Part shown: piece after piece, positions 1 to 35,770 of the stretch
How the letters are laid out: each line of letters begins with the position of its first letter
Position numbering within the stretch: the stretch's first letter is position 1
Source of the DNA: Thozetella sp. PMI_491
Lineage: Eukaryota > Ascomycota > Sordariomycetes > Chaetosphaeriales > Chaetosphaeriaceae
NCBI GenBank assembly: GCA_021432635.1
Contig: MU270095.1
Span: 124,001 to 188,000, forward strand
Length of the DNA stretch: 64,000 nucleotides
Direction: 5' to 3'
Notes under the pieces: model-generated
Seen by the model: only the letters and a program-made list of their open reading frames with translations
Databases searched by the model: none
Told to the model about the DNA's origin: nothing
Translations under genes and position numbers: made by a program

Positions 1-3000
1 AGGGCTGGTATAACTGAGACACTGCTCGAGCTCGAAGCCCAAAGTCTAAAACAGCCTGTCCAGATATATATCAACCACAAGCTCTCTGCCCTGAAGGAAA
101 AGGATGGCTACAATGATGATACCTTGGCGGAAGTTTCAAGTGCAATCTGTGAACGGGCCGACAACACTTTTCTCTGGGTAGCTCTCGTCTTCAAAGAACT
201 GGACTCTGCTGCCGGATGGCATGCTGTTCGGATTATCAATGAAATCCCTTCCGGCTTGTCAGAGCTCTATGATCGCATAATAACGAGAGTTGAAGAGGAT
301 AGCGGCCTAGACATGGAATACTGCAAGAATGTCCTGGTGGCAACTTGTCTTGCGAATCAACCTCTCTTCCTCTCCGAGCTTGCCGTCGTTGCTGGTTTAT
401 TGCCCACGATCCCCCCTCAGAAGATTGTCGAAAAGTGCGGCTCATTTCTCACCATTAACGAGGGAAGAGTCTATCCCATCCACCAGTCGGCCAAGGAGTA
501 TCTAATGGCAAACTACGAGTCGAAGCTTCAGCCGGCAGGGGTTGCCCGAGGACACGTGGATATCGGCAAACACTGCATCAATGCGATGTCATTAGCACTA
601 ACACGAAATATGTACTTCCTCGATTATGGGTTCCAGGAGGATGTCAGACCACCGGAGCGGGACCTACTAGCCCCACTACGATATTCCTGCCTCTTTTGGG
701 TCGACCACCTTTGTTTTCCAGATGGCGAGTGTTTGGAACGTGATCACGAGTTGGTAGATGACGGCCGGGTACACAGGTTTCTGGAGAATCACTTCCTCCA
801 TTGGCTTGAGAGTATAACTCTTTTAGGGGACCTTTCATCCGGATTACAGTCCATAAGGAAGCTTTTGCAAATTATCCAGGTATGTCTACAGCATAACAGC
901 TTATCTAATTACTGAATGTTCCTAGCTGCAACCGAATGCAAGCCATCTGCTTGAATTTCTGAAGGATGCCGAGAAGTTTATCCTCAGCTACGGATCGATT
1001 ATTGGACAGGCTCCTTTACAAATTTATGGGTCCGCACTCGTGTTCAGCCCAAGGATGAACGCAGTCAAGAAGGCGCAATGGTCCGAGAGGCTTCCTCATA
1101 TACACAAGGTTGAAGGTATCAGAGACTTTTGGGAAGCGCATCGGACTCTCGAGGGCCATAGCAAGGACGTCAACGCTATTGCATTCTCATTCGACGGCAA
1201 GATGCTTGCGTCGGCTTCAAACGATACAACGGTCCGGCTCTGGGATACTGCGATAGGCACCTCCCGAGAGCTCCGGGGGCATAATAGCTATGTTTACGCT
1301 ATTGCACTCTCACATGACGGCAAGATGCTCGCGTCGGCTTCGTGTGATAAAATAGTCCGGCTTTGGGATACTGCGACAGGGGCCTCCCGAGAGCTTCAGG
1401 GGCATAGTGGCTGTGTTATTGCTATTGCGTTCTCGCCCGACGGCAAGATGCTCGCATCAGCTTCAGACGATACGACAGTCCGGCTCTGGAATACTACAAC
1501 GGGCACCTCCCAAGAGCTCCAGGGACATAGTGACTATGTCAACGCTATTGCATTCTCATACGACGGCAAGATTCTCGCGTCGGCTTCGCACGATACAACA
1601 GTCCGGCTTTGGGATACTGCGACTGGCACCTCCTCCCAAAAGCTCCAGGGACATAGTAACCAGGTTAGTGCTATTACATTCTCACCCAACGGCAAGATAC
1701 TCGCATCAGCTTCACACGATACAACGGTCCGGCTCTGGGATACTGCGACCGGCACCACCTCCCGAGAGCTCCGGGGACATAGTAACCAGGTTAGCGCTAT
1801 TGCATTCTCGCGTGACGGCAAGATGCTCGCGTCGGCTTCGAACGATACAACGGTCCGGCTTTGGGATACTGCGACCGGCATCACCTCCCAAGAGCTCCAG
1901 GGAGATGGCGGCTGGGCTAGCGCTATTGCATTCTCGCGCGACGGCAAGATGCTTGCGTTGGCTTCGTTCGATACAACAGTCTGGCTCTGGGATACTGCAA
2001 CAGCCACCTCCCAAAAGCTCCGGGGGCATAGTAGCTATATTAACGCCATTGCATTCTCGCGCGACGGCAAGATACTCGCATCAGCTTCACGCGATACAAC
2101 GGTCCGGCTCTGGGATACTGCAGCAGGCAGCATCTCCCGAGAGCTCCAGGGGCATAGTGACTGTGTTCACGCTATTACGCTCTCACACGACGGCAAGATG
2201 CTTGCGTCGGCTTCAACCCATACAACGGTCCGGCTCTGGGATACTGCGATAGGCACCTCCCGAGAGCTCCGGGGACACAGTGGCTATGTCAACGCTATTG
2301 CATTCTCATACGACGGCAAGATACTCGCGTCGGCTTCAGACGATACAACGGTCCGGCTCTGGGATACTGCGACAGGCATCTCCTCCCAAAAGCTCCAGGG
2401 ACATAGTCACCAGGTTAGTGCTATTACATTCTCACCCAACGGCAAGATGCTTGCGTTGGCTTCATACGATATAACGGTCCGGCTCTGGAATACTGCGACA
2501 GGGACCTCCCGAGAGCTTCAGAGGCATAGTGGCCGGGTTATTGCTCTTGCATTCTCGCCCGACGGCAAGATGCTCGCATCAGGTTCAACCGATACAACGG
2601 TCCGGCTCTGGGATACAGCAACAAGCACCTCCCGAGAGCTCCGGGGACACAATGGCTATGTCACCGCTATTGCATTCTCGCCCGACGGCAAGATACTCGC
2701 GTCGGCTTCAGACGATACAACGGTCCGGCTCTGGGATACTGCGACAAGTACTTCCGAGAAGCTTCTTCTTGACACCATCCTTCACACCTTATCATTTGAT
2801 AAGACTGGATCCTATCTTAGGACTGAAATTGGAAACATTCGAGTCGACAAACTGTTAGACTCAAGCTTTCAGAATCTTTATCAGAAGCCTTATTATACAG
2901 GCTACAGTATTAGTTCAGATCAAAAATGGATTATGCGGGATTCGGCGAAACTCATGTGGCTGCCGGAGGAGTATCGGCCAGTCTCTGCTGTGGCACACAC

Positions 3001-3064
3001 GGCAATGACAATGGCATTTGGTTGCCGGACTGGCCAAGTTCTGATTTTAGAGTTCTTGCCATGA
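1..3064 (+). CDS. NACHT-WD40 NLR (HET-E/HET-D-like), 5' partial
   Basis: The gene is cut by the left window edge. Exons are <1..879 and 926..3064, with a 46-bp GT-AG intron in phase 0. The first about 290 residues match the region downstream of the NACHT ATPase core in fungal STAND proteins (RADNTFLWVALVFKEL, then a winged-helix-like stretch with CGSFL and IHQSAKEYL). From 1151 there are 13 WD40 units of 41-42 residues built on GHSxxVxAIAFSxDGKxLASASxDTTVRLWDTA, then one decayed unit and a non-repeat tail. In fungi this architecture belongs to HET-E/HET-D-type receptors that trigger incompatibility cell death; that role here is inferred. The N-terminal effector domain and P-loop lie outside the window. 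The repeats are nearly identical, which suggests concerted evolution. Confidence 0.9.
1151..2764 (+). repeat. Tandem WD40-coding repeat array, 13 units
   Basis: Thirteen in-frame units of 123-126 bp run head to tail. Framework positions are almost invariant, while two or three residues after GHS, the residue before DGK and the residue before DTT vary. Units 4-5 and 10-11 share the rare features SSQKL and AITFSPNGK, so a block appears to have been copied with a six-unit spacing. Because the period is a multiple of three, other frames stay open here; those are not genes. Confidence 0.9.
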
Positions 3065-5237: not shown

Positions 5238-6058
5238 TCACCTGCAAAGTCATTCTTTGGTAACTAATTTATCTAAATAATTACCATAAAATTTATCCAT
5301 TTCGTGTGATAGTTCGCACTGTGTGCTATCATTCCTGAACTACATAACTTGGGATGCTTCTGCCAAGTACACTAACGCTGGTCGTACACGAAGTTCCGGG
5401 AACCTCGTTCACCGACGTTATGGCCGGAGCTTGGGACAAGTGATACTTGAAGCCTACAAAACGAGGACAGACTCCTTAGGTTTAAAATAACGAAGGGAAA
5501 AAAAAAGGGAGAAAGGAGGCAACAACCCGAGCTTCTAAGTTGTTTGACTGCCCATTTGAATATTTGTACCTGTAATCTAGGACATGGTGTCGAGCCCCTT
5601 TGGGACTAGCGCCTGCCTCCTTTGGCAGTATTCCCTCACCGCCCACCGCCCGGCCCGTTCTGCCGCCAGCCTCGTATAAGACCGCGCCCGCCCCAGCGTT
5701 CGCTCCGGTCCCTCCCCCGTACTCTCTACTTCCGCCCGTGTCAGTGGTTTCGGGGAAGTGGAAGCGCGGCCGAATCCTTACACTTCCGCTAGGGTGGGAT
5801 GCCGAGCGGGTACTTGTGCTTGCGAACGCTCGCCATTAGCTGCGGATGATATCTTTACTCTCCTGGGAGAGTAAGAGAGCTTGTCTGGTCTAATGAGGGC
5901 GGCTGAGGCAATGCAATCCGAAGTTGCATACATTCGGCTGACATATACGAACGGTTAAGAGCAAAGCAAAATGACTGGTGGAATCACATTAAACATTGTA
6001 GAAAAAGGATAGAGTAATGTAAAGAGTAAAGGTACACACTCCTAGGCGCTCCTGTCTC
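5238..6058. other. Intergenic region between convergent genes
   Basis: Two convergent 3' ends meet here. The left part is A/T-rich; 5600-5850 is a proline-codon-rich GC patch whose open frame has no recognisable family and no splice context. Nothing else recognised. Confidence 0.5.
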
Positions 6059-7229
6059 TTAGCTAGCTGTACCCGCAGCTCCGATATTTGCGCTCCCGAC
6101 AAAGACGACCTGCACTGCTGCGAACCTGCTCTCGTTGTCAGCCTCACGAACTCCTGGGAGACTAGGTGCTGGTATACTTGCGCAGCCGTAGCAGAAAAAA
6201 TCTCAACCAGTTTGCCATTGGTCAATAAGCCGAGGCCTAATGAGAAAAGTCCCGTAAATACACCACACATGGCCAGGCGCACAGTCATGTCTTGCAAAAA
6301 GTACAAAACCACGATAGATGCCACCGGTAGTAAGGAGGCGACAACGGTGCCGATGACAGCGGTGAATCGTACAAGTCCCGCCTCCGAATAGGACACCGTA
6401 TTGTCATCGCTACTTCCCTTTGTCCTGCAGGCTTCTTCGTCGGTGGCTAAGGGTTGTGGCTTCTGAAACAGTGATAAGCTCACGTCAAATCGCTTCACCT
6501 ACATATGCCATATGATACCCTCGAAAATTCGACGGCTAGCGTCTGGCAAATCTTACGTACCCTGAAGAAACGTCCTATGCAGTGATGATACCACCATACG
6601 AGGTGATCGCTGAAGAAACCTGAGAAAAAATTATCGCTTTCTCGAGGACCCAGAGATACGAGCTCCGAAATGGGACAACTCTCCCATATATCTCTATCGC
6701 TGCCGAAGAGAAGCACGTGGCCCATTTTTGGCATGCCCATCCACGTTTGCAGGAACTTCAAGTCTCTCTTATTAGGTGATCCTACGTTCGTAACCATATG
6801 CTGAAGGAGCAAGGTGTGGTCTGCAGGGCGCGATATCAGTCACCCCTTCACTTTAGCTTGAAGATTCGATAGGACCACCACATGAAATACTTTGAGTCAC
6901 CTACTATATTGATGCAACTTCTCTCGAATTGTCTGGAGCGTGATCCATTGCGCTGGATTGCCGCCTTCGGCTGATTCAGACTCGCTAATGCCTAACCAGT
7001 AATGGTTATAATCCATTCTCTTTGCGACAGCCGACTCAGCGTCCGCTCGCGCATATTGCTGGAGTGATTGCTCTAGCTCGCAGAGCTCAGCTTGGAGATG
7101 CAGCAGGGTTGTCCTATTGAGAGCTGCGAAGCGCCGGAAAATGGCGATTTCTGGGTGCGCACCCATAAAGTCCGCCAGCTGAGCGTAGCCTGCTTCTGGA
7201 TTTTCTTCTTGAGCTTGTACAGAGGCCAT
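6059..7229 (-). CDS. DUF6594 membrane protein
   Basis: Four exons on the minus strand: 7229..6905, 6820..6561, 6498..6182 and 6125..6059, coding for 322 residues. The N-terminus has the DUF6594 signature (GYAQLADFMGAHPEIAIFRRF, then LHLQAELCELEQSL). The centre keeps DLKFLQTWMG and GSDRDIWES. The C-terminus has the hydrophobic segments RFTAVIGTVVASLLPVASIV and VRLAMCGVFTGLFSLGLGLL, ending ATAAFAAVQVVFVGS. These look like two or three membrane spans near the C-terminus. The family is common in ascomycetes and has no known function. Intron 3 (6181..6126) must use a GC donor (GCAAGT) to restore the conserved ATAAFAAVQ; the other introns are GT-AG. Start chosen at the first ATG before the conserved block. 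Confidence 0.85.
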
Positions 7230-9860
7230 GGAGTGCGCTTGTTTGACCTAGTGGAGGGATAATTTCGTGTTTGTTAGTATGCGAAGAGAAATGCTGCGAC
7301 GAAGTTATCATATCCTCTCTGCATGGAGACGATGGTATTGTCGCTATTATGCCCCCTATGCTTTGGTGCCTAAATAAAAACCCAGCCTGCTTTCAATGTC
7401 GGGTCAGGCTGCAAGGTTGACAGAATCCACCGAAATCGTCCCAAGGCAAGGCTGCGGGAGCTATAGGTGATAGCCCACTTCAATGCAGGATAGACAGGGC
7501 GACAGAATAGACAGGGCGGCATGTACAGAAGAAGGTGCATCATTTGGCGGGGCTCGCTTCTGGTGCTGTTCACGCACTAAAATGCGAATCTTTCGCCTTA
7601 CTCGATGTGGCTAATAAGGTAGGCAGTCAAGGGCTCCAGTTGTACTCCGTACTTCCTAATAAACATCGTCTTTCGTTTAGGGAACAAGAACTAGGATGTG
7701 GAAGGCTCAAGTCGGGTACAGCGTGACAACGGGCGATAGGACTAGACTTATTACCCGCCTAGGTGGTTATACATACCAATGCTTGTAAAAAATAAAAATA
7801 AAAATAAAAAAGGAAGGGAGCGAGCACTTGCATTTGTTTGATCCGTTACACAGGCAACAATCAGAGTAAATTTACGGACCGGGGCTACCGAGGGTAGATG
7901 ACGAGCGTTGTCCGGACCTGACCCCGACACGACCGTCTTCGATCGGCCCGGTTCTTGAGAGGCAGCGGAGTATTCCAACGACCACAAAAAGCACGCTCAT
8001 GCCTCAACACCACACATGAAGCGTATTAACCGAGTCACTTCAGCCGACCTTTGCGTCTGGAACCCAAGGGCCAAATCACAGTCATCTCATAGTTGATAAT
8101 GAGGTACAAATATATAGCCCTTCGGTTCAAGTCCGATGTGTTCTGCAGGACGTTAAGTCGCGCAGGGTCTAAACCGGTAGACTACATGGAAAAATTAAGA
8201 GACCTACGTCACCGCTGTATGGCCTATTTGTCTGCTGCCCCGACCGGCGCGATGAGCATATTATGGGGGGTAGAGTGCTATACCAGTGTTCATCCCGCTA
8301 TTCCTTAGTAGCGACACCGTCGCACCGGAACATGAGCAGCATATTGCGGACCGAGGAACGGCCGAGAGGCTTAAACTGAGGTGCGTACTGGCCGGGCCGA
8401 GCAGCGCGGATGTTGAGTCCTACTCCAACCACCCCCAGGAAACCCGGAGGTGCCAGGGCCACGATGGACTTGAAACAGGCACTGAACTCATCTTGAACAT
8501 GGTCCCAGCTCCAGTTGGGGTCGCCTGTTTTGCATGTAATAGTTGTGACGCGATGAGCCATCCTATCGAACTAGGCCCGCTTCAGAATTGCAACGTCCCC
8601 AGGTTGTCATCCTCGATCTGAGTGGTTTCGGTGCAGACGTGAAAGGGGGGGCACCAGTCCGCCCTAACATGTGGCGAGCGAGACCGTGGCGGCGGTGTTT
8701 GGACGACGGTGTTTGGTCGAGGCCCAAGCCGCGGCCAAATGAAGGACACTTCCGTGTGTCCCAGCAGAGGCCCCTGGCTCATTGCGCTGGCCAATCGCAC
8801 GGCCGAGAAGGCCTGGCTTGGACAGTGGAGAACACCAACATGCGCGAGGCGTGCCTCATCGGTCGATTTACAGCCAAGGCCCTGCTGTCCCGGGTGGGCG
8901 AGGCTGAGGTTTGACAAGACAGGTCGGTCAGCGCACGCGGCGTTGCAACTGGCCCCCCCACCACCTAGAGTCCTTGTCCTAACGCAAGTCCCAGGGGCAT
9001 ACCACCACTCTAGCATCCCGTAATCGGAAGATGGGGGGAGTGGAGGTGTATGCAGAGCCATGAGAGCTTCCTTCGAGGTACTGGACTTTGGCCAGCACCA
9101 CCAGACGATCGCTCTCATGCCTCCTACTTCCTGTCATTTGGTCGCCTGTCCTTGCCCAGATCTCCAGACCATCATGCTCCTATCTCCAGTTCTCTTGGTT
9201 AGGCTTATTCTTAGGTCTCAAAGACGGCCGTGCAAGCTCTGTTTTGGCTGCCGGCCAGAGAGACGGTGGAGGGGATCTGGACAGACTGTTTGGATTACAT
9301 GTGTTTCCGATCCTGGCGTGGGAATAAACATGTTTTATGTAAATACAGCTTGTAGTTCCTCCAATTTGGTCACCCGCTTTGCTGGGGTCTGGCCTGCTGT
9401 CCTCATTGTCGGCGTCGCGGGCGGCGAGGCAACTCCCGCTGCTGTCGCAGCTTCTGCCTGCTGCTGTAGATCTCTAAAATTGGGATTCTGGCTACTCGCA
9501 GCACCGTTAAAATTGAAGAAAGCATTGATATGATTGGTCAAAATTCCCCGCCGAGGCGTGGAGGGGGTCAAGGGTATTAGGTGGGAAATCAAGGATTGCA
9601 GTGCCGCATCGTTTTCACCGACACGAGACCCGCTTGAAGCCTTGCCTTGCCTAACTGGGCCAGCAGGTCGTGCGGCAGCTGAATTAGCTGCGGCTTCCTG
9701 TCCTCAGGTGGGTCTCGTTCGACTAGCTGGCGGCCACCTACTAACAAGATGTATAAAGGAAGTCTCACTCATGTTCCTACCTTACGACTTCTTCCTTTCT
9801 TTACCTCCCTCCCCCTCCCCCCCAGTTGCGAGCTTATGAATCCACCTAAGACGTCCAAAA
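7230..9860. other. Long gene-poor interval
   Basis: About 2.6 kb without a recognisable gene. It holds an (AAAAAT)n-type microsatellite at about 7787-7811 and one copy of the motif TACTCCGTA at 7643-7651. Open frames between 8580 and 9600 overlap on both strands and show no family motif, signal peptide or convincing splice pattern. Confidence 0.5.
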
Positions 9861-11630
9861 ATGGCCCATCGCTGGAGTCACCTGCATCTTCTGGTCCTCG
9901 TTTTCGCTGTGTTCGCCCCAGCTGGCGGTACAGGCCTTAACGGAACAGGACCATTTCAGATTCACCCTGCTGCTAATATTACCGAATGTCTATTCTACGA
10001 TAACTACGTCATCCCAGCAAACTTACCTCTGCGTGTTGGCCCCTGTTCTGCCACTGACCAAAATGCCCTTTGGCAAATTACACCTAACGGCACCCGCTAC
10101 TTCTTGTCTTGTCTAGCCGACATTTGCACGAACTTGAACATCGGTCTTGTCCAGATACCTGATAAACGTTTAGTTCTAATCATGGCCACGGCCAACGGAC
10201 ACGATTTCAACCAGTATTGGGAGTTTACTGTACGCATTTGCTTCCAACTCAACTGCGCCTTCGTGATGCTACCCTGGCCCCCTCTGACTCCAGTTTGAAC
10301 TCTGACTCTTTTTTGGTGCAGGAGACTAGCCCGGGGAAGTGCGAAGTATCCTGCCGAGGGCTTCCCGGTGCCCTCCTTACAACCAATCCCCTTGATGCCT
10401 CGTTTGCCGGCGCCGTACTCGAGAACTATACCACTGCGGCGCCAAACGAGTCGACTTGGATTGTGGCCCCCTGGACTTCAACATTGAACTTGACTGCGTC
10501 AGCGCCGCCCGCCGAAGGGCTTCCCTCGACTCTGCCACTTATACTCGGCCTCTGCATTGGCATCGGAATTCCAATTCTAGCGGGCTCCGGATGGATTATT
10601 TACAGGAAATGCCGAGGCGAGCGCCTTTTCCCGTTCGGCCGGTTCAAAGCAAACCTCCATCCAAAGCCCTCCTCGGAGAGTCTAGCAAGCCTTGACCTAC
10701 CCGCCAATCTCCGACCAGCTAGTCCTTCGCTCGTCGCCACGAGTGCCAGGGGTGTACCCCAAGACCGTCTTCTCGAAGCCAGCCTTGTTTCCGATTCGAC
10801 GTTAGCGGGACCATCGCAACTCCTCCCGCCCAACGCAACAGTTCAGAGAACGAAAGATTCTCCTGTGTCCGTATCCTCCAAAGATCATGGCACCGTAGCG
10901 GGGACTCGAAGCTCTGGAGCGTCACGGGAAAGTATGGTATGTAAATGTACTATATCATTGCCTTGGTCTCTCAACAGCTCCTAATACTCAATTTAGGGCA
11001 ACAAAACTCCAGTCCTTTTTCTCGGCCCTGGAAAAGGTGCCGAAGAAGTTACAGCTATGGCGATTCTCGACTCGCAAGCTTCATCGGGAAATTGGATTTG
11101 CAAAGACATTGTCAAGGCCCTTAAAAAGGACTTGGAAATGGACACGAGCGAATCAGGTGAATTTATCACGTTTGACGGCCGACCGATTGTCCCCCTTGGC
11201 AAGGTCTTCCTTACGTTCAGATTTTCCAGAGGGTTGACGTTCCATCGGGATCAACCCTTTTTTGTCTATGACTCGTCTGAGTGGGAGGTCGTGCTGGGCT
11301 GGGACTTTATCTCGAAGAAAGAGATAATGTTGAAGAACGAAAGGGCACTAGTAGCACCGGTAGGCCCGCATAGACCTATCGGCCAGAGTAAGTTTTCCCA
11401 CTGTATGCATTTTATTCCCCTTATTTATACCGCAATTGTATTTCATGTCTAGTTCTCGATATTCTAACAAGTCCATAGGGGAGGAAAGGGCAGGCAGACG
11501 GAATACGAGGGAGAAAAGGGATGCAAAAGCCGCCCGGCTGAAGGAAGAACATATCAAAAAACAACAACAGCAGCAGCAGCAGCAGCAGCAGGACCAGCAG
11601 CAACAGGGCCAGCAGCAGCAGCAGCAGTAG
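9861..11630 (+). CDS. Single-pass membrane protein: QxW ectodomain and cytoplasmic retropepsin-like domain
   Basis: Four exons: 9861..10229, 10322..10936, 10997..11387 and 11479..11630, coding for 508 residues; all introns are GT-AG and in phase. Residues 1-24 are a signal peptide. The ectodomain has several N-glycosylation sequons and three spaced tryptophan motifs (NALWQIT, NQYWEF, ESTWIVAPW), suggesting a ricin-like beta-trefoil. A membrane span lies at about 194-215 (LPLILGLCIGIGIPILAGSG), followed by basic residues and a Ser/Pro-rich linker. Residues 329-458 resemble a retropepsin fold: AILDSQASSGNWI at the catalytic-loop position, then PIVPLGKVFLTF and VVLGWDFI. The canonical D-[ST]-G-A is DSQA here, so it may be a pseudoprotease. 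The tail is charged and ends in polyglutamine. The fold assignments are inference from motif pattern. Confidence 0.7.
11569..11627 (+). repeat. CAG-type trinucleotide repeat coding polyglutamine
   Basis: Runs of CAG/CAA codons, broken by one GAC and one GGC codon, code the Gln-rich C-terminus of the membrane protein gene and stop at TAG 11628-11630. Length variation between strains is likely. Confidence 0.85.
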
Positions 11631-29957: not shown

Positions 29958-32900
29958 TCAAGACTTCTCTACCTGATTGGCCGACGCCTTGTCCTTCCAC
30001 CTTGTTCTCACCACCCTTAGCAGAGCCCAGGCAATGAGCCGGTAGGCAACCACGCATCCAAGTAGGGACACAATGTTCACCACGCCGTTGTCGTTTAGGT
30101 TGTACAGGTCAAGAACCTGTTCTCCGTCCTTTATAAAGCAATCTCCATTGGGAAGCTTCTGTTCATCGGTGCAAGTAAAGACCACACCCTTGAATGCGAA
30201 CGGTGCAAACCCCCTGATAGCGTAGCGGATTGGGCTAAGATAGTTGAAGGCGACGAATAGCTCAGGCATATTGATGCTAAGAATTCCCGACATGACCTGG
30301 GCCACCGAGAGGAATACAGAAATCAGATTCACTGCGAAGCCGGTATGGCTGAATAGAGTGTTCTGTGGAGGTGTTAGTAAAATAGATACAAGTGTGTTTG
30401 CTCGAAGGCAACAAAGAGTGGGGGGGCAGGGTGCTTACAAACATGATACCCAGGCTCTCGCCACAGCTCACAATACCGAAACACGAGACCACTGCTACGA
30501 AGTACATCTCGGCCGTGCGCTGCAGACCGGCTGCCATGACGACGAGGACAGCGTAGACCAGGGAGCTGAAGATCTCGCCAGGCACCTCAAGAAGCGTATA
30601 CGTAGCCAGGAAGCCTTCCACGCCGTAGACACCGTCGTCCGATTCGCGGTAGAACACATCCCGCTCGATGGGATAGACGGCGACGTTCTGAAGCATGCCC
30701 ACAAAATACAGCGAGCCGATCTGCTGCGTGAGGCCAATGCGCGTCTGCACAGAATAGAAATCGTTATGCAGCGGAGCGAGGAAGAAAGTGAGAACGATAC
30801 CGAGCCCAATGGCCTGGAACGTTCGGGCGAGGATGAGGTCTGGCTGGCGCATTAGATTGATGGTGGCACGCCGAACGAGGATCTGCAGGCGCATAGATCA
30901 GTATCTGTTCTCACACCTTGAACTGAAAGGTGTGCGCTTACCGGGAAGGCGATCAAGAAGGAGGCGCGCTTGCGGACCAGCGCGCCAAGCTCGGCGGGTG
31001 TCGCTAGCGTAGCCTTGTTAAAGGACCTGCGAGGAGAGGGAATAAGAGCAACGGCGGCCGGCTGGACCTGCAGAGAACTAGAGGCTTCCGTGGACGACGT
31101 CTTGTCTGCGACAGATGAGGATGGTTCCTCGGCTATGTCCTCCAGCCGGCGTTTCTCCAGCAGATCGGGGACAGTGGAGCGAGCAACCTCGGACTCCCAG
31201 GCGCGGATGAGGCTCTCAGCCTGCTGCCGGCTCTCCTGTTCCCGGTCTGCCTGCTGCAGGTCAATGGTGATGACATCGAGCGCGAAGTCGGCGGGATTAG
31301 TGTGCTGTGGACACTCGAGCCCCTGGGCCTTGAGATATCCGAGCATCTCCTTGGTAGGACCGGAATAGACTGGCGAGCCCCCTCGGGCGAGTAGGAGCAC
31401 ATTGCCGAAGTGCTTGAACAGATCAGAGCGGGCTTGATGGATCGTCAGAATCAGGGTCCGACCTTCCTTGGCGAGCCCTTGCAGCACCTCCATGATAGAG
31501 CTGGCCGTGAAGGCATCTAGGCCGGAGGTGGGTTCGTCGAGCAGCAGGATACGCGGGTCGGTTAGGATCTGGACGGCGATGGTCACGCGGCGCTTCTCGC
31601 CGCCCGAGATGCCCTTGACGAGTTCGTTGCCCACGAGGTTATCGGCGCAGTCCTTCAGCCCCATCTTGAGCAGCACGTCTTCAGCCCGTTTCTTCTTCTC
31701 GGCCCCGCTCATCCAGGAAGGAAGCCTGAGGCCGGCAGCAAAGTGCAACGTCTCTCGGACAGTAAGAGACGGGAGTAGGGCGTCGTCGTCTTGACAGACA
31801 TAGGAACAAACGGAGCGGATAACCTCTCGCGAAGGCTCGGCGCCGTTAAACTTCAGCTTGCCGGAGGGCTGGTACCGACTGCTCAGGTTGTTCTGGAGCC
31901 TGAGGGCCATGGAGTTGAGCAGAGAGGTCTTGCCGCTACCCGATGGGCCCATGATGACGTTGAGAACGCCGGCTTGGAAGGTGGACGTCACTGGGTTGAG
32001 AATATTTTTGGTCGGAAGCTTCTTTCCATACTGCGAGCGCCGGTGGACCTTCAGGGCGAACTTCTCCAAGGAAACGTCGATGGTGCGCACCTCGGCGATT
32101 GACTGTGCTTTGAGGTTCTCCTTGCCAACGGAGAGATCCCCCTCGGACCGCTGGGCCCGGGAGATAGTCATCTCGACATTGACCAAGGTGAGGCCGATCC
32201 ACGCGAGGGCGTAGAAAAACACGGCGAAGCTGACGATGATGACGATCGGGCGCCAAGTCCAATCCATCGGGAAGCCAAGCGAATCCATGATGTACTGTCC
32301 GGTATACGAGGCACATGCCGGGTTTGACTCGCCGCCTTCGAACGGGCAATCGTAGAACGAGTTTTGAAACTCATTGGCCGAGAGCGCGCCCATCACGTAA
32401 TACTAACAGAAGGTCAGGGGAACGTACTGAAGTACGGGAATTCAGAAACCTGCTTACCCCATAGGCGACGTATCGAAGCCACCGCACATAGACCGGGATC
32501 GTGCTGACTTGGATGAAGAAGCCGCAGCACATGGTCTGGAGAGTAAAGCTGAGATTGGCGATCAGGCTGGCGCCCGGGAAGTTCCTCGAGGCGGTGACGC
32601 AGAGCATGGCGCAGGTTACGGACAGGTACTGGTTGATGAGGGTGATGCTGAAGTAGACGAAGTACTTGGATGGCTCGCGGTCGAAACCGGCCATGAAGTA
32701 GAAGATGACGCTGAAGAGGAAGGGAACCGGGAAGTCTTCAGTGAACAGCCTCGCCAAGCGCCTCGACAGAAGGAAGGGCAGGGCATCTGAGCAGCCCTCG
32801 CTGTGCTCCCGGTCAAAGGTGGGAATATCAATGGTGAGGCGGTAAATCTCCAGGATGAGAAATAAGTAACCCTGGAGCGCTGAGGTGGTGTAGAGCGCGC

Positions 32901-34290
32901 CTTCTCTTGACCGTATGCCGGCCTGGTCGCGCGGGAGGTTGAAGAAGATGTACCCGCAGATGACGCCCATGAGAATTGCCTGCAGAAGCGCAGCGGCCAT
33001 GCCCATGGGGTCTCGGATAGTTACCTTCAGGGTACGGTCGGTGAGAACCCGCAGCTGCCGCACGAAGCCGGCGTGCTGGTGGTGCAACACGGGAGCTGTC
33101 CTCGGCGTGCCTCCCTTCTCCGAGCCATATCTCCTGCTGACTTCTTCGGCCCAGCTGGTCTTGAGATGCTGCACGCGCGCACTTGTCTCCGCCTCGAACT
33201 CGGGCGTTCGGTTGTCGATGGCCGAGGTGTCGATGACGAACTCGGCCGGGTTGACGAACGGCGGCAGCTCATGGCCGAGCTGGGCGAACCACGGTAGGCA
33301 GGCGTCGACGGGCCCGGAGTAAACGGGGCTCCCCCGAGTGAGGAGAATGAGGTTATCGAATAGATCCCAGATCTCGGAACGCGGCTGGTGGATGGTGGTA
33401 ATGATGGTGCGGCCCTTGCTAGCCAGCGCTTTCAACGTCCGCACGAGCTGATACGCGCTCGTCGCGTCAAGACCAGTCGTGGGCTCGTCGAGGAAGAGGA
33501 CAGACGGGTTGGCGAGTAGCTGCACACCGATACTAACGCGTCGCTTCTCACCTCCGGAGCAGCCGCGGTGTTGGCTGTTCCCGATCCGGGTGTCGGCGCA
33601 TTCCTTTAGGCCGAGCTCGAGGATGACCTCCTCGACTATTCGGCTGCGGGCCTCTGCCGATGTAGACGGGGGGAGCCGGAGGTCAGCCGAGTATCGCAGG
33701 GTCTCCCGAACTGTGAGGGTCGGCAACAGCACGTCCTGCTGCATTACATATGCATGGCGGACCGTGTGCACGCCGAGGGCTCCGTTGAAGGTCGCGTAGC
33801 CTGTCTGGGAGAGGCGCGAGCTGGTTATGCGCTCGGCCATGGTGTTGAGCAAAGTTGTCTTCCCGGAGCCGCTGCCGCCGAGGATGGCTGTGAGCGAGCC
33901 GGGTGACAGGGCGGCGTCAACCGAGTGGATGAGGACCTTCTGCCGCGGCGGCTCCTCTCCGTCGCGGCGCTTGCGGACGGCATCCTTCCAGAGATCGCCG
34001 TAGGTGGCCGGGTTCAGGATGGATGGCGAGATGTCGACTGACACCGACAGATCGCGGATCTGCACATCGACCTCCTCAACGTCGTCTAGCGAGATGTTGT
34101 TGGCGTCGGCGAGGGAGAAGCGCCGGGTACGTCCGCGAGGCTGCTGGTGGTCCGGCGTGGGGTCCATCGAGGTGGCGATGGAGCTCGCCGGCTCGACCTT
34201 GTCCACGTCCGGGAGGTCGGCCGGGATGTACTTGTCGGAGTGGGCGTCGGACGGCGGGTGCGGCGGCCGGGCTGGGCCGTGCTCGTCCAT
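29958..34290 (-). CDS. Full-size ABCG transporter (NBD-TMD)x2
   Basis: Four exons on the minus strand: 34290..32458, 32402..30942, 30882..30439 and 30362..29958, coding for 1380 residues; three GT-AG introns of 55, 59 and 76 bp fit in phase. Each half has a complete ATPase: Walker A GGSGSGKT and GPSGSGKT, signature CSGGEKRR and ISGGEKRR, Walker B LFLDEPT and LLLDEPT, and H-loops TTIHQPRS and LTIHQARS. Each is followed by a membrane domain; the second has the usual extracellular cysteines before the last helix (VVFTCTDEQKLPNGDCF). The NBD-TMD order and WHITE-type motifs mark a pleiotropic-type exporter in the plasma membrane. The first NBD signature begins CSGG instead of VSGG. The substrate cannot be told from sequence. 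Confidence 0.93.
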
Positions 34291-35770
34291 GTTCGGTGCG
34301 GTGCCGGTCGTGCAGCCGTGGAAGAGAATGGGAAACGCTGCGCACGCGTCGAAGCGGGCCTCTGTTCTTTATCTCCCTTCCACTTGCGACCTCCGAAGCC
34401 AGGGTCGTATTCGTACCCACCAGGCTGCGGGTGCTGGGCACTCTTGGGCCAGGGTCGCTACACCGGGAACCAACGCCGGATGGTTGATGTCCCCTGGGGC
34501 CCCCCGGAACCTCGGGAGGGGCGGGCGCAGCTAGACATGTTTCTCGGCGAATGTGCTCTTCTAAAGCGCAAATTCGCGCGCAGTAGCCTGGCCGAGCCAT
34601 TGAAGCCAAGCAGCACACACATTCCTCTCAGCTTCGGCCAAGAGAGCGATGCTTAACCGCTTTTGGGGGCTTCGTTACGACTCGGTCCCAATGCGGATAG
34701 CCCCACGCCCGACCGTGGCACCTTCCACGTTTGCGAGCCGAGCTCCACAAGCAAGGGCGGCCACCCTATAAGGTAAGCTACGGTTTGCAAGACCCAGCAC
34801 CCCACAAGCTACTACTCTCCGTCACTTTTAAAGTTTCTGGTCTGTGCACCCCATGTAAAATTTCTCTGGCCCCGGCCGTCGTTCCTCCCCAAGGAGCACC
34901 TCAAAGAATTTCAAGATTGTTTGCGAAATTACCCCGCTGGCTCAGCCTGGGAGCCTTTAGTTTCTGGGGCCCCAAGTACCTTGGCCTTCCTGACTAGTGG
35001 AGCCCGAATGCTGCGCAGTCGTACGGAATACGGAGTAAGCACTCTCCCTCGAGTAACTCCCAGGGGTCTGTCTAGTCGCATCGCTTCTACACGTAAGAGG
35101 CACGTAGTCTCACTCAATCGCCCCTCTAGTGATCTAACTCGGCTCCGTACTTCGTGTAGTAAGAGATCGCCTCTCTATTGCAACCTTTGTCTCCACATTC
35201 GGGTCCTATCTGCGATGCATCGGGGATCCGGGGAGCACGCAGGTCGCGTTCGGGTTTGATATCACGCCTCAGCTGCCCTCAGGCAGCCTCAGTGTGTGTC
35301 TCGTGCAACACCTTCATTGGCCCACCGGCCCAACCATGTCCCATCACGACACAATCCCTCGAGTTTGCTGCAACTCCGGATGCATTTTATGCTCTTTTCA
35401 ATTATTCACACGGTCGCGCCCAAGGCACTCTTATGTGGCCCGACGCCGTGCGCTACCTTAGTACGGAAGGTGGGGGTAGAGAGGGAAGAGAGCATGGCCA
35501 AGGCATGTGACAGTACCTGCACGGTGAGGCCTGTCTTGTACACGAACCCACAACCAGCGTGCAAGCCTCCGCCCGGTGGCTACCTGCAAACCTCAGACTC
35601 GGCCGTCAACTGCGCTTTGGGACTTCTAGCATTCATTGAAGCCGGGGAACTGGCAATCATCATCGAGGCCGGTGCACATTAGAGACCTCGAATTCCTCGT
35701 GTTCAACCATCGCTTCGAAACAAGTCGAGGTCCAGATCCAAGCACCAGAGACTTGTCCTTTGCGGGGATT
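34291..35770. other. Intergenic region
   Basis: 1.5 kb. Contains the ABCG promoter and one TACGGAGTA motif (35029-35037). Open frames antisense to the ABCG N-terminus are shadows. No gene recognised. Confidence 0.5.

Follow-up and report, generated by a model that had tools for sequence, protein, structure and literature searches.

Retropepsins are obligate dimers in which each chain supplies one catalytic residue, and putatively membrane-embedded retropepsin-like proteins have been described from bacteria and mammals, according to the account in PMC4140852. As that text describes them, SASPase (ASPRV1) and rickettsial APRc resemble the protein reported here in carrying a retropepsin-like catalytic domain on such a membrane protein; APRc differs from it in having a DTG motif, three predicted spans and a protease domain predicted to lie outside (PMC4140852). 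In Bacillus subtilis, the membrane protein SpoIIGA is described as carrying an aspartic-protease domain on its cytoplasmic side and as being switched on by SpoIIR, but it is bacterial, has five spans, cuts pro-sigma-E and has a large extracellular loop described as dispensable (PMC13174948). The trigger of SpoIIGA was placed in the cytoplasm by a 2026 abstract (PMC13174948). SpoIIGA is likened here by description and not by sequence, and may serve as the nearest, though imperfect, working analogue of the sensor proposed below. To our knowledge, neither SASPase nor APRc has a lectin-like ectodomain. One survey of early-diverging fungi reports A28 retropepsins of unknown role, whose presence might be explained by domestication or by transposons that were incompletely masked (PMC8778642). 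We recognised no description of the architecture below in searches of the open-access literature on fungal retropepsin-like or receptor-like proteins.

The window analysed here is a stretch of 64,000 nucleotides from Thozetella sp. PMI_491 (MU270095.1, positions 124,001 to 188,000; C81:124001-188000 in our numbering), and searches of its own genome covered 72.3 Mb in 157 contigs. A forward-strand gene was modelled at positions 9861-11630 from splice signals and reading frame, without RNA. It starts with the ATG at 9861, ends with the stop codon at 11628-11630, and has four exons encoding 508 amino acids. The gene limits given in the first-pass annotation coincide with the start and stop codons of this model, and its order of signal peptide, glycosylated ectodomain, single span, linker, inner module and polyglutamine tail was matched by the gene model and by hydropathy. 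The features, in window coordinates, are as follows.

9861..10229, plus strand: exon 1, residues 1-123, with the signal peptide and the first two ectodomain lobes; open frame, donor GTACGC
9861..9929, plus strand: signal peptide by prediction, residues 1-23; the hydropathy windows begin at residues 7-10, with the cleavage site placed by eye
9930..10229, plus strand: exon-1 part of the ectodomain, residues 24-123; weakly Ricin_B_lectin-like, below the curated cut-off
10230..10321, plus strand: intron 1, phase 0, GTACGC/AG
10322..10936, plus strand: exon 2, residues 124-328; 205 open codons
10322..10522, plus strand: remaining ectodomain, residues 124-190; Cys 130 and 134, sequons 158, 165 and 179, Trp 169
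10523..10603, plus strand: membrane span, residues 191-217, followed by basic RKCRGER; hydropathy up to 2.12
10604..10936, plus strand: cytosolic linker, residues 218-328; order-promoting residues low (0.23), by composition only
10937..10996, plus strand: intron 2, phase 0, GTATGT/AG; same place and phase in the L002 and L003 models
10997..11387, plus strand: exon 3; the retropepsin-homologous domain is residues 329-458 (10997..11386)
11069..11080, plus strand: catalytic-loop position D353-S-Q-A356, from alignments A1-A3
11288..11299, plus strand: hydrophobic-hydrophobic-Gly motif V426-V-L-G429; Gly invariant in alignments A1 and A2
11388..11478, plus strand: intron 3, phase 1, GTAAGT/AG; same place and phase in the L002 and L003 models
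11479..11630, plus strand: exon 4, coding a basic tail rich in K, R and E and the stop codon
11568..11631, plus strand: tandem repeat of CAG type that encodes the polyglutamine end of the protein

We read this gene as encoding a dimerisation-coupled single-pass surface sensor, with a predicted lectin-like domain outside and a retropepsin-type domain inside whose proteolysis would be weak or absent, and give this reading a probability of about 0.45. What can be taken from the DNA itself is the gene model, the topology signals, the retropepsin homology, the kept Asp, the Gln in place of Gly, and the shared introns.

Hydropathy gave two hydrophobic segments in the protein, one within residues 7-28 (the signal peptide) and one at residues 191-217 (the span). 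Sequons at residues 27, 39, 76, 158, 165 and 179 are placed outside and those at 294 and 330 inside, and the six ectodomain cysteines are Cys 43, 62, 84, 89, 130 and 134. The signals of a type I membrane topology, as put forward earlier, are supported by this analysis.

Residues 24-190 matched Ricin_B_lectin (PF00652) at E 0.0085 in a scan of 24,736 Pfam models, the weak match covering residues about 41-123. Exon 1 and residues 30-123 gave E values of 0.024 and 0.01, respectively, both below the cut-off, and the family was not listed in the Pfam scan of the whole 508 residues. Against the PDB, the single sequence listed was a Ricin B lectin entry (E 0.2). HH comparison of the ectodomain with seven ricin-B-like domains of the same genome, of which two scored below the Pfam cut-off, gave a score of 32.2 (probability 60%), which was reached by none of 60 shuffles (maximum 21.6). 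Trp 71, 120 and 169 would end three lobes, and the spacing of Trp and Cys in the first two resembles that of PF00652. Of the QxW-type ectodomain called in the first-pass annotation, a weak beta-trefoil-lectin signal was recovered, but the exact QxW motif was present in one lobe of the three (Q118-Y-W120) and the score was 16.7 bits against a curated cut-off of 29. By prediction, the ectodomain is probably lectin-like. Single-sequence search of the genome gave no convincing ectodomain paralogue; beyond the ectodomain itself it listed L006 and L007, which were judged to be chance matches from their E values (0.01 and 0.2, respectively) and, for L006, also from its frames.

The exon-3 domain alone had no Pfam match at E values up to 10, and the PDB sequences listed for it included no retropepsin. 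Searching its own genome with the domain retrieved L002 (E 1.6e-12, loop LDTGC) and L003 (E 1.8e-8, loop LDTQC), and searches with these two added L034 (contig C2, loop DTGN) as well as two broken copies, L035 and L037. L002 lay just under the cut-off for Asp_protease_2 (E 1.3e-4, 23.0 bits, cut-off 24.3), and L003 gave E 0.11. When the genome was searched with PF13650, 15 places were listed at E values of 1 or below, and the gene at 9861-11630, L002 and L003 were not among them. Neither L002 by itself nor the four-member profile A2 retrieved a retropepsin from the PDB. HH comparison with a profile of 12 retropepsin-like domains of the same genome, Ddi1 included, gave a score of 38.4 (probability 89.6) for the exon-3 domain, and no shuffle of 60 reached that score (maximum 18.0). 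The four family members taken jointly scored 71.1 (probability 97.7), again with none of 60 column shuffles reaching the score (maximum 16.6).

Profile A3 has 11 rows with Ddi1 left out: four from the family (the exon-3 domain, L002, L003 and L034) and seven that come from four further genes. The best 15 of the 32 PDB matches listed for A3 were Ddi1-type entries (E 9.2e-6 to 6.3e-4; 3s8i first), SASPase (0.0051 to 0.097) and Ty3 protease (0.014). There were eight Ddi1-type entries, two of which are named otherwise (UBA domain-containing, ubiquitin family) and were taken for Ddi1. In the alignment of A3 to DDI1 homolog 1 the catalytic loops were in register. The domain is thus homologous to retropepsins by transitive evidence at the level of sequence, through its relatives and the profile; against PF13650 (clan AA, family A2) the homology was likewise found by that route, and no Pfam score over the curated cut-off was obtained. 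The retropepsin-like module that had been proposed for the cytosolic side held up on the HH shuffles, the relatives in the genome and the first place of Ddi1 in the PDB search with A3. L008, taken to be the genome's own Ddi1-like gene, has a canonical DTGA loop and, by eye, a UBA-like end, whereas the 508-residue protein has DSQA, one extra residue after the loop and a membrane span. NCBIfam gave two weak unrelated matches for four proteins and PHROGs gave none for three proteins. As expected for a fungal gene, none of 99 pattern matches in viral_contigs and none of 48 in genome_contigs was confirmed as a relative.

The loop of the 508-residue protein reads L-D-S-Q-A, with Asp and Ser kept and Gln in place of Gly. 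The departure from D-[ST]-G-A noted in the first-pass annotation is real and lies at residues 353-356. LDSQA does not follow the hydrophobic-D-[ST]-G consensus of clan AA, family A2, while the downstream hydrophobic-hydrophobic-Gly motif is present (V-L-G429). The suggested check on the loop aspartate found Asp in 11 of the 11 rows of A3, seven of which come from four genes found with PF13650, a model that itself favours Asp. The third loop position is Gln in the 508-residue protein, L003 and L035 and Gly in L002 and L034, and the four aligned family members carry an extra residue after the loop relative to the remaining seven domains, also fungal, in A3. Elsewhere in the genome, domains of L012, L014 and L015 have the loop variants DLGS, DFGS, DTCS and DTAS. 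The same Gln change stands in three members, which disfavours a purely private decay of the loop. Gln may have been gained once, gained twice, or gained and then lost again to Gly in L002, since the tree did not resolve how the 508-residue protein, L002 and the L003 and L035 pair are joined.

Because the loop Gly is Gln, proteolysis would be weak or absent and binding or scaffolding is more likely; the kept Asp and Ser would still allow cleavage. The protein may instead act as a signal-transducing protease, in which the ectodomain would receive a signal and the cytosolic dimer would cleave a substrate or itself, a possibility that we consider unlikely but the strongest of the alternatives. Asp353, Ser354 and the hydrophobic-hydrophobic-Gly motif are what such an enzyme would keep, and the Gln form also occurs in L003, whose modelled frame is open, so that it may be a working variant. 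There is also a reported membrane-embedded aspartic protease, SpoIIGA, that cleaves pro-sigma-E when SpoIIR is present (PMC13174948). On the other side, Gln at the third position of D-[ST]-G falls outside the family A2 consensus as given in PMC4140852. The precedent is weakened in that SpoIIR is described as acting on the cytoplasmic domain and not as a secreted signal (PMC13174948), and the text of PMC4140852 treats the place of SpoIIGA among retropepsins as not universally accepted.

In the tree, the gene at 9861-11630 formed a clade with L002, L003 and L035 (support 97/93), within which L003 and L035 were paired (93/92). Measured from the common fork, its branch was 1.35, compared with 0.39 for L002, 0.68 for L003 and 0.90 for L035, and was thus 1.5 to 3.5 times longer; this could reflect a relaxation of constraint, the gain of a new role or a stem that the tree does not resolve. 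L035 (C5) and L037 (C8, about 7 kb from L002) are broken relatives of the family with in-frame stops. Three forward frames of the 1.5 kb upstream of L002, L003 and L034 were scanned for hydrophobic segments (19 residues, mean hydropathy over 1.6), and none of the three had one. The membrane architecture was therefore seen in one of the four own-genome members with an open domain exon. L003 starts with MGNLLTR, which resembles an N-myristoylation start, so this second member of the family may be membrane-bound as well.

A retropepsin module recently captured behind a membrane protein could also be drifting, or the span could merely anchor it, with no receptor role in either case. The long branch, the broken relatives in the same genome, the microsatellite-like polyglutamine end and the single occurrence of the architecture would suit such a gene. 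Its four exons are nevertheless all open and bounded by GT/AG splice sites, the protein retains the catalytic Asp together with the GNW motif and the DGRPI stretch, and the long branch may in part be the stem of the unresolved fork, and we regard this account as improbable.

In the gene at 9861-11630, in L002 and in L003 alike, the domain is immediately preceded by a phase-0 intron and immediately followed by a phase-1 intron, the L002 and L003 models also having been built from splice signals without RNA. The exon upstream of the shared phase-0 intron has 72 residues in L002 and 127 in L003. The retropepsin exon would therefore expect an upstream coding exon, which here is the exon of span and linker. 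The last exons of the L002 and L003 models are also basic and Q-containing, like exon 4; with the L002 tail as query, L003 was retrieved at E 0.001 and the tail of the 508-residue protein was not retrieved. The sole Met of exon 2 is its last codon (Met328), so translation of exon 2 from a start codon requires that it be joined to exon 1. Since the introns flanking the domain match those of L002 and L003 in place and phase, a single predicted transcript of exons 1-4 is supported, and an artefact of two genes read as one was judged unlikely from the shared introns. Two genes or transcripts, that is, a secreted or membrane protein from exons 1-2 and a soluble retropepsin from Met328, are very improbable: L003 also has a Met just before the same intron and the modelled relatives have no detected span, but a start at Met328 would leave a first exon of one codon, compared with 72 and 127 residues in L002 and L003, and no stop interrupts the frame between the span and the intron.

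The gene was also considered as part of a live retroelement, and this was rejected because no RVT_1 was near it among the matches listed and the model has introns. None of the at least 35 RVT_1 matches listed was on C81, C58 or C2, and the one on C8 among the matches listed was about 640 kb from L002. No reverse transcriptase of the same element, as an LTR-retroelement protease would have, was found, and the gene model has three introns. In the genome, 33 of the at least 35 RVT_1 matches listed have in-frame stops, mainly TAA, a pattern that suggests repeat-induced point mutation. Together with the introns and the gene content, these interrupted reverse transcriptases are consistent with a filamentous fungus. 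The earlier statement that retropepsin folds usually come from retroelements or Ddi1 proved too narrow for this genome, in which the multidomain retropepsin-like genes L009, L012, L013 and L014 have no reverse transcriptase near them among the matches listed. L013 (C1) is one open frame with a J-domain-like start, by eye, and two retropepsin-like domains with DTGA and DSGS loops; L009, L012 and L014 likewise have two retropepsin-like domains per frame. In L011 (C88), one open frame joins what looks by eye like a protein-kinase-like region to a downstream retropepsin-like domain whose loop is DTGS.

The Pfam scan of the window covered 20 frames (17 of the 76 frames of at least 150 amino acids, and three shorter ones). 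At 926-3061 on the plus strand, an open frame of 712 amino acids contains 13 WD40 stretches in a tandem array of units of about 123 bp (12.7 copies, 80% matches), as is characteristic of STAND/NLR genes in fungi, HET-E for example; the 304-residue frame preceding it had no Pfam match. Two frames at 5992-7244 on the minus strand matched DUF6594, one its end and the other its start (each with E about 4e-18), and no paper naming DUF6594 together with fungi was found in the open-access literature. Two adjacent ABC transporter frames, PDR-like by a weak PDR_CDR match, lie at 30855-34368 on the minus strand.

The preferred reading, a sensor whose output depends on pairing, can be set out as a sequence of steps. 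A secreted lectin-like ectodomain with its span would have been joined to a module of retropepsin exon and basic tail exon, the same module that in the relatives would stand on N-termini with no detected span. The ectodomain would bind an extracellular or cell-wall glycan, and ligand or clustering would alter the pairing of the cytosolic domains, which would dimerise in the manner of retropepsins. Since retropepsins are obligate dimers, a single span with a retropepsin domain on its inner side would couple lateral association to a cytosolic output. The dimer would then mainly bind or display partners, with catalysis weak or lost. Against a receptor stand the exon-3 domain with no direct Pfam or PDB retropepsin match, the long branch, an ectodomain below the cut-off and an architecture seen once.

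The more specific proposal, that this is a eukaryotic single-pass receptor in which a lectin-like ectodomain controls the dimerisation, and hence the activity, of a cytosolic Gln-variant retropepsin-type domain, is doubtful on present evidence. If true, it would mean outside-in signalling through a retropepsin, for which we know of no established precedent now that the trigger of SpoIIGA is placed in the cytoplasm. A retropepsin under a single-pass span would offer a simple route from receptor clustering to a cytosolic output. The family also provides a natural series at one loop position, with Gly in L002 and L034 and Gln in L003 and the 508-residue protein, which asks what this position does.
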